This document shows positions 7,312-8,578 of a stretch of DNA of 22,248 nt, one piece after another. Under the pieces are notes generated by a model, which made no database searches, had not been told where the DNA came from, and saw nothing but the letters and a program-made list of their open reading frames with translations. The position numbers and the translations under genes were made by a program. The stretch is from a virus, in the IMG/VR virus record IMGVR_UViG_3300025151_006993, positions 1 to 22,248 of that record; one strand, written 5' to 3'. Position 1 is the first letter of the stretch. Every line of letters starts with the position of its first letter.

Positions 7312-7532
7312 TGGATAAGATGAAGAGTCGTAAGCTGTGGCTGTCTGTGTTGGCTGCCCTACTCCCCGTACTAGCTAAGCATTTCTTCCCTAACCTTCCG
7401 ACCGAAGCCATCATCGCTTCAGTCCTTGGTGCTGTGTCCGGTGTGCTTGGTATCAGCATGGAAGATGTAGCTAAGCAGAAGCGGGCTGCCCTGGAGGCAG
7501 CCGCTTCCCAGGGAAAAAAGCCCTCCGAATAA
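7311..7532 (+). CDS. Holin-like small membrane protein (zero-frame product)
   Basis: 73 aa with two hydrophobic segments (about residues 8-23 and 32-48) separated by a short Pro/Asn turn, then a charged tail (DVAKQKRAALEAAA). This is the shape of a class II holin. It follows the M15 endolysin by one small gene, the usual lysis-cassette context. The start overlaps the preceding stop (TAATG), with GAGGA about 9 nt upstream. Near its end it contains the perfect -1 slippery heptamer A AAA AAG (7514-7520) in the correct phase, only three codons before its TAA, so some ribosomes may continue into the -1 frame (see the next two entries). The holin role is inferred from topology and context. Confidence 0.7.
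   Translation: MDKMKSRKLWLSVLAALLPVLAKHFFPNLPTEAIIASVLGAVSGVLGISMEDVAKQKRAALEAAASQGKKPSE
7514..7520 (+). promoter_or_regulatory. Putative -1 ribosomal frameshift site (A AAA AAG)
   Basis: The heptamer AAAAAAG lies in the holin-like gene in the phase A|AAA|AAG. This is the same sequence and phase as the E. coli dnaX slippery site. An overlapping G GGA AAA heptamer (7511-7517) is also a legal slippery sequence. A GGAGG at 7493-7497 lies about 16 nt upstream and could act as a stimulatory internal Shine-Dalgarno, although that is further than in dnaX. I see no convincing downstream hairpin. A -1 slip leads into an open frame of 71 codons. Confidence 0.5.
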
Positions 7533-7735
7533 TTCCCCCTGTTGTATTACGTCCTACTGATACTGGTGGCCTTGATCTTTCTCTTACTGGGAATCATCAT
7601 CGGTGGGATGCTGGTGCTGCTGTTAGACATACGCTCGGACGAGACTTCGACCTCACCGCCCAGCTATCAGCCGGAGCCGAATGGGGTGGTGCCACCGATT
7701 GGCGAGGCACCGTAGGTATGAAGTGGAGATGGTAA
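7520..7735 (+). CDS. -1 frame extension of the holin-like protein (Trp/Gly-rich C-terminal part)
   Basis: An open frame of 71 codons plus TAA that has no usable start codon of its own and is reached by a -1 shift at 7514-7520, giving a fusion of about 140 aa. The product is Gly/Asp/Leu/Trp-rich (GGLDLSLTGNHHRWDAGAAV, later AEWGGATDW and the C-terminal GMKWRW). It has alternating hydrophobic residues and a terminal aromatic residue, like strands of a small beta-barrel. Three points favour it as coding: the stop abuts the next ATG (TAAATG), its first half uses the T-ending codons typical of the neighbouring late genes, and it fills an otherwise empty 200-nt gap. Alternatives are an indel in the A6 run that split one gene, or the competing zero-frame reading described under rejected items. 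Confidence 0.5.
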   Translation, partial: ALRIIPPVVLRPTDTGGLDLSLTGNHHRWDAGAAVRHTLGRDFDLTAQLSAGAEWGGATDWRGTVGMKWRW

Positions 7736-8578
7736 ATGGCTACTAAAAAAAAACCAGATCCTAATAAGCTAGCTCGGCAGTTTGCAGCTAAGCGCAATGC
7801 TATAGGTAAAAGCTCCACGCTAGAACTGGGCTTGCCAACATACATAAGAAACAAAGCCTACAAAGGTAAAGGCATCCGTGAAAGAGATGCCGAGATTATC
7901 GAAGAGGCCGCTAGAAGAAAGAAGCAAGAGCTATCTAGCAGGCTTGGGAGCGAGCGCTTTAAGGATAGGCTAGCGAAGCAAGGCATCGCAGTCGGTGACG
8001 ATGTGCTGAAACATGTAGACGACACAGTTAAAGCGACGCCTATCTACGCAACGAAACAGGTTGATGATCATGCATACGGACAGTACACGGAGCGAGGTAA
8101 AAACCCCCACCTTGCAACAAAGCATTTGCCGTTACGCCAAGCGCGCACTGATGTTCGTGTGAACCCCTACATAATAGGAAAAGACAAAAAAAAGAAAAGC
8201 GTTACACGGCACGAGCTTGAGCATGCTTTCGATGAGTCATTTAAAGCCGCTAATCCTGGCAAGTCTTTATCGCAAGTACAGGGCCCTTTGTTTGAAGCGC
8301 TTGGTGCTGACATGAAAAAGTACGGCCGCCACTCCCCAGAAGAGATGAGAGCCGACATCATGGAGCTACGAGATGAAATCGGTAGCGAAGATGTCAGCGT
8401 TAAGCAGCTAAAAAAATACAGAGATCAATATAAAGATGTAAGCCCAGGCAACCTGCCTAGGATTCATGGCATGGTCAGGCGAGTAATAGAAGCAAACCCC
8501 GGTATGTCTCTCGAGGATATTGCTAAGCTTATTAACTCTGTCGCTATGAGGCAGAGAAAAAATATGGGGATGGCATAG
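7736..8578 (+). CDS. Putative zinc metallopeptidase (HELEH motif)
   Basis: 280 aa. The zincin signature HExxH is present as RHELEHAF (His159, Glu160, His163), and a downstream SPEEMRADIMELR (Glu202/203) could supply the third zinc ligand. The N-terminal 70 residues are basic and helical. Residues 95-150 look like a small globular part. The C-terminal 70 residues are helical (IARLINS-like helix near the end). There is no signal peptide or membrane segment. It starts at ATG 7736, directly after the -1 frame stop, with GGAG 7 nt upstream, and is the last gene before the convergent hairpin. Possible roles are processing of a virion or host protein late in infection. The motif is visible, but activity and substrate are inferred. 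Confidence 0.7.
   Translation: MATKKKPDPNKLARQFAAKRNAIGKSSTLELGLPTYIRNKAYKGKGIRERDAEIIEEAARRKKQELSSRLGSERFKDRLAKQGIAVGDDVLKHVDDTVKATPIYATKQVDDHAYGQYTERGKNPHLATKHLPLRQARTDVRVNPYIIGKDKKKKSVTRHELEHAFDESFKAANPGKSLSQVQGPLFEALGADMKKYGRHSPEEMRADIMELRDEIGSEDVSVKQLKKYRDQYKDVSPGNLPRIHGMVRRVIEANPGMSLEDIAKLINSVAMRQRKNMGMA

Follow-up and report, generated by a model that had tools for sequence, protein, structure and literature searches.

A small holin-like gene is, in our reading, very probably subject to programmed -1 frameshifting, by which it would yield a short membrane protein and a longer fusion. The gene lies in a virus record of 22,248 bases (hereafter the window, i.e. the whole stretch of DNA analysed), and the inference rests on sequence comparison. 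The comparison with homologous loci supports a conserved frameshift signal, a -1 frame that is coding, and a coding signal in a further frame embedded behind the holin-like gene, while slippage in cells, its rate, the fusion product, the point at which the window's embedded frame is started and any part in lysis are inferred.

The putative slip site and its reading frames

The features of the window on which the argument draws are the following (all on the + strand):

6656-7042, +, endolysin (Peptidase_M15_3) near the zero-frame gene, providing a lysis context
7311-7532, +, zero-frame gene for a 73-aa holin-like protein, with a weak PHROG match to a holin family
7493-7497, +, GGAGG, possible internal Shine-Dalgarno stimulator (its spacer is 13 nt for G_GGA_AAA, 16 nt for A_AAA_AAG)
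7511-7517, +, G_GGA_AAA, second in-phase heptamer overlapping A_AAA_AAG
7514-7520, +, A_AAA_AAG, slippery heptamer in slippery phase, putative -1 frameshift site
7520-7735, +, -1 frame, predicted beta domain of 71 codons (fusion of ~141 aa via frameshift) with the C terminus TVGMKWRW followed by TAA
7530-7532, +, zero-frame stop TAA, three codons past the heptamer
7533-7715, +, embedded ORF in the zero frame past the stop, in overlap with the -1 frame (a hydrophobic stretch of ~31 residues followed by a Pro-rich tail)

The zero-frame protein meets the criteria for a holin in its size (73 aa), its two hydrophobic segments (predicted transmembrane helices LWLSVLAALLPVLAKHFF and AIIASVLGAVSGVLGIS) and its charged tails (Lys-rich at the N terminus), and pore formation is inferred. 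Its match to the holin family phrog_9987 is weak (E=0.014 for the window protein; best E=0.0014 among relatives).

Read as zero-frame codons, the end of the gene (GCC GCT TCC CAG GGA AAA AAG CCC TCC GAA TAA) confirms the observation from which this work departed, that A AAA AAG stands in slippery phase at 7514-7520, three codons before the TAA. The preliminary description had further held that the -1 frame has no usable start, stays open for 71 codons and ends at the ATG of the next gene; these points stand as well, given that its stop (TAA, 7733-7735) adjoins an ATG at 7736 and that the only ATG, GTG or TTG of this frame in the window is an ATG six codons from the end. The product of the -1 frame includes the peptide DFDLTAQLSAGAEWGGATDWR. 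As AAAAAAG occurs 9 times in the window (6.2 expected), the heptamer alone is unremarkable, and the element that goes beyond chance is its conservation across homologs, not its mere presence.

Conservation of the heptamer in homologous loci

Homologs were sought in IMG/VR with queries drawn from the -1 product and the holin-like proteins, as sequences and as alignments, which yielded 61 distinct loci from uncultivated viruses. In 22 of them (family 2) an unrelated two-helix protein stands upstream of a related beta domain in the -1 frame, in the same layout. The loci inside each family are kin, hence the counts given below are not independent.

Beyond the zero-frame stop, every one of the 61 loci has a -1 frame that stays open for ~60-75 codons; a homolog with stops in this frame, which would have refuted the frameshift, was not encountered (0/61). 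An in-phase X_XXY_YYZ heptamer precedes the zero-frame stop in 60 of the 61 loci, where synonymous recoding expects ~6, and the excess recurs in both recoding sets (40/41 observed vs 3.8 expected in one; 22/22 vs 2.0 in the family-2 set), which overlap by two loci (L112 and L113). Among control ORFs, 22 of 336 end with an in-phase heptamer. The alignment of homologs that had been proposed as a check thus finds the phase retained and both frames open, with a single exception as to the heptamer: the lineage L108-110 lacks an X_XXY_YYZ sequence and has only a C_CCC tetramer.

Eight kinds of heptamer occur with the phase kept (GGGAAAG, AAAAAAG, CCCAAAG, CCCTTTG, CCCTTTA, GGGAAAC, AAACCCC and AAACCCT), of which G_GGA_AAG is the commonest. 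Close relatives of the window carry A_AAA_AAG, and distant ones G_GGA_AAG, C_CCT_TTG, C_CCT_TTA, G_GGA_AAC, A_AAC_CCC or A_AAC_CCT; on the family-1 tree the heptamer class switches at least 6 times. In family 2 the site is A_AAA_AAG, G_GGA_AAG or C_CCA_AAG in 22/22 loci. That the heptamer is exchanged for other slippery heptamers with the phase retained speaks for a function. The three motifs C_CCA_AAG, G_GGA_AAG and A_AAA_AAG, which make up 43 of the 60 heptamers, gave the highest -1 efficiencies in E. coli measurements (PMC4066793).

The -1 frame could instead be an ordinary overlapping gene, coupled to the holin gene and translated from a non-AUG start of its own, the heptamers being incidental. 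At several loci it does overlap the holin end by a few codons, rare starts are usable by bacteria, and an early TTG is present in the -1 frame of L029 and L032. Nevertheless, we regard this explanation as very improbable: across the homologs, no position of the -1 frame has a conserved start codon or Shine-Dalgarno site, the heptamer persists in nearly all loci in spite of its letter changes, and a free -1 product would be without an export signal.

Scarcely credible is the notion that transcriptional slippage, on the A6 run that the window indeed possesses, or assembly errors account for the joining of the two frames. An A5 or A7 run in the reads, which had been named as a possible refutation, finds no support, as independent contigs from many samples all show the same A6 run. 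Moreover, the arrangement is the same without A6 in most loci from L011 on, and long homopolymers are absent from GGGAAAG, CCCTTTG, AAACCCC and GGGAAAC. Transcriptional slippage was consequently rejected, the majority of heptamers not being homopolymers. The claim that one gene would give rise to a short holin-like protein and a longer -1 fusion is supported by the retained phase, the open frame (61/61) and the constant A6 run.

Possible stimulators of slippage

Family-1 loci carry GAGG upstream of the heptamer in 36 of 37 cases and family-2 loci GGAGG in 18 of 22, the spacer being 13 nt in most; GGAGG was observed in 20 of 40 loci where 4.0 would be expected by recoding. This enrichment may reflect a stimulator, and we treat it as suggestive only because the encoded protein context (Leu/Val-Glu-Ala) is itself conserved. 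The AAACCC[CT] class, whose heptamer does not belong to the three most efficient motifs, has a stable hairpin ~5 nt downstream of it (best z -5.8 and -2.9). Its four sequences show two compensatory pairs; since 59 of 500 shuffles reach this covariation, it is no more than supportive. Apart from this class, strong downstream RNA structure was not found in most heptamer classes, and an Rfam search of the window gave no match. In the A6 class the heptamer is followed by CC, the dinucleotide most prone to shifting in this place according to an E. coli study, which we cite as it is summarized in PMC5009743.

The predicted product of the -1 frame

Purifying selection acts on the -1 frame as far as simple counting can tell, with a median dN/dS of 0.24 (0.18 in its final part), against 0.97 in the embedded frame and 1.43 in the third frame; the proposed dN/dS check thereby came out in favour of a coding frame. 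From a diverse alignment, AlphaFold2 predicted a meander of four antiparallel, amphipathic strands of ~10-12 residues each (pLDDT 84.6). All 61 products of this frame end in Gxx-hydrophobic-x-[FW], with nothing beyond, as do 3 of 403 control ORFs. A C-terminal F/W preceded by alternating hydrophobics is the outer-membrane signature (beta-signal) of bacteria (PMC7335169), and the -1 products fit it; we take this motif to be the best pointer toward an outer-membrane destination, the location itself being inferred.

Database searches added little to this. With Foldseek, zero PDB matches of the beta domain fell below E 0.001; Hia, AtaA and YadA, all of them trimeric autotransporter anchors, are among the top ones, tied with unrelated sheets. 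The alignments span the whole membrane part (rmsd 2.4-3.5 A for Hia/AtaA, 4.4-4.5 A for YadA) and the C termini coincide, and the viral library returned several phage proteins annotated with a YadA-like anchor. A Pfam search with 12 members of the domain gave no match at E<=10 (the trimeric autotransporter anchor profile included), no relatives of the domain were found in PHROGs, and searches of PDB sequences returned chance-level matches only. As modelled, the domain would share with the YadA, Hia and AtaA anchors a four-strand meander that ends in a C-terminal aromatic, a resemblance weakened by the tie with unrelated sheets; it has no sequence match to them and neither a passenger nor a coiled coil.

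A third frame embedded in the extension

Past its stop, the zero frame continues as a putative transmembrane ORF that had been overlooked in the preliminary description and whose coding nature is supported by the comparison. Given the -1 protein, the hydropathy of the embedded frame is reached in at most 0.3% of synonymous recodings in the class of the window; the signal is significant in nearly all lineages (weak in L029, L052, L053 and L073), and in family 2 it is seen in 22/22 loci (P of 0.015 or less). There the embedded start lies exactly 3 nt past the stop in 22/22 loci (ATG in 20, GTG in 2), and a Shine-Dalgarno-like sequence frequently precedes it by 6-9 nt. For the window two starts come into consideration, TTG at 7542 or CTG at 7539, and the choice between them is unresolved.

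The embedded frame also bears on the codon usage of the extension, the first half of which had been said to use the T-ending codons of neighbouring late genes. Such codons are present (24/33 in the first half, 4/33 in the second), but the neighbouring genes do not favour them (30% T); we attribute them to the hydrophobic ORF in the overlapping frame. Readthrough of the zero-frame stop was rejected as a general route into the embedded ORF, further stops being present there in the divergent loci L051, L052, L067 and L076.

In the class to which L096 belongs, ATG is the first codon of the embedded ORF (L096:5035-5220), whose 61-aa product weakly matches phrog_4381 (E 5e-4), a family of unknown function.

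Proposed expression scheme and role in lysis

We envisage that most ribosomes would complete the small two-helix, holin-like protein of the inner membrane, while a fraction would slip at the X_XXY_YYZ heptamer (A_AAA_AAG in the window) and produce the fusion of ~141 aa. The slip would add a domain of ~70 residues, with four beta strands and an outer-membrane-type C-terminal signal. Ribosomes that do not slip would stop just ahead of the embedded transmembrane ORF and may start it, so the slip rate would fix the ratio of three proteins.

As to what these proteins do, we lean, tentatively and somewhat short of calling it probable, toward the outer-membrane (spanin-like) step of lysis, with the fusion tying the inner to the outer membrane. 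The gene has an M15 endolysin next to it both in the window and in L114, and an endolysin-related gene in several other family-2 loci, a neighbourhood that suggests a role in lysis, which is inferred. The same neighbourhood stands against an envelope or virion-assembly protein without any part in lysis, which we find quite unlikely. That possibility draws on the weakness of the holin-family match and on L003, L077 and L108, where (as also in L093) the gene is placed between major-capsid-like and portal-like genes and not beside an endolysin.

The topology of the two-helix proteins is harder to reconcile with a spanin-like role. Positive-inside charges predict both ends to be cytoplasmic (N-in/C-in) in both N-terminal families, which would leave the beta domain on the side facing away from the outer membrane. 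The main alternative, a holin with a longer antiholin or timing variant, would accommodate this prediction: the tail would remain in the cytoplasm, where the beta domain would control the pore of the short form, in the manner of lambda S105/S107 though at the C terminus, and frameshifting would deliver the short and the long form in a fixed proportion. We judge it rather unlikely, because a regulator that acts in the cytoplasm would hardly be expected to have the invariant C-terminal motif and the amphipathic strands. The preliminary description had offered both an antiholin and a membrane-to-envelope linker; the outer-membrane-type C terminus favours the linker, and the roles remain undecided, given the N-in/C-in prediction and the lack of an experiment.

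Taking the spanin-like reading further, the locus might represent an undescribed three-protein lysis module of viruses with Gram-negative hosts, in which one slip rate would govern a holin, a frameshift-made spanin with a beta anchor and an embedded one-helix protein; we put this forward as a doubtful proposal. Profiles of Rz/Rz1 (PF03245 and PF06085) found nothing (0/13 and 0/15 records, some of them fragmentary), and neither feature of unimolecular spanins that was looked for (N-terminal lipobox, C-terminal transmembrane helix) occurs in the translations. Isolate phages gave no match at the DNA level and no credible match in protein searches with both parts and both families. Relatives were also absent from bacterial genomes in two scans, which leaves the host unknown.

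Comparison with known systems

Well-documented phage frameshifts are located mostly in tail-chaperone genes (in lambda on the heptamer G_GGA_AAG), and both -1 frameshifting on such heptamers and overlapping spanin genes are well known. The lambda pair gpG/gpGT, as reported by Xu et al. 2004 in the account given by PMC5009743, likewise arises by a -1 shift near the end of the short gene and has a C-terminally extended minor product; there the proteins are tail chaperones, whereas here they are small membrane proteins, several of them encoded by endolysins' neighbours, with a third ORF overlapping the extension. The E. coli dnaX gene has A_AAA_AAG, its phase and an upstream Shine-Dalgarno-like sequence in common with the window; the dnaX shift truncates the protein while the shift considered here extends it, and a dnaX-like stem is not evident in the window. 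With the Rz/Rz1 spanins (PMC6139136) the locus would share overlapping frames for membrane proteins near an endolysin and the proposed link from inner to outer membrane; unlike them, it lacks a lipobox and, in the records searched, any match to PF03245 or PF06085, and its outer-membrane part would be a beta domain joined by frameshifting.

The preliminary description knew of no such lysis protein, and a frameshifted holin was indeed not found in the open-access literature searched (subscription papers were outside the scope); a long review of frameshifting, as far as its text was searched, leaves holins unmentioned. A frameshift conserved in holin-like genes with two unrelated N-terminal proteins and an extra overlapping frame would add a way of setting the ratios of lysis proteins, and perhaps a new route through the outer membrane. 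Its eight interchangeable slip sites form a natural series, in genes that standard annotation overlooks.

Several further observations concern the surroundings of these genes. Downstream of one family-2 gene (L119:3447-4010) lies a 188-aa protein matching phrog_3000 and the endolysin family phrog_33083 (E 3e-18). Upstream of the family-2 gene, at the same locus (L119:2666-3001) and in L114, there is a conserved protein of 112 aa, hydrophobic at its N terminus and probably with a coiled coil, which could be an inner-membrane spanin or a holin partner. In the window, an alternate frame of the ORF 13230-13685 (-) contains, at 13456 on the - strand, an ORF of 76 aa whose translation has a lipobox (MKWITVLLMSTCMSGCM...). 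Lastly, one 68-kb contig (3300030099_006113) carries the family-2 gene twice (L118 and L122), ~34 kb apart.
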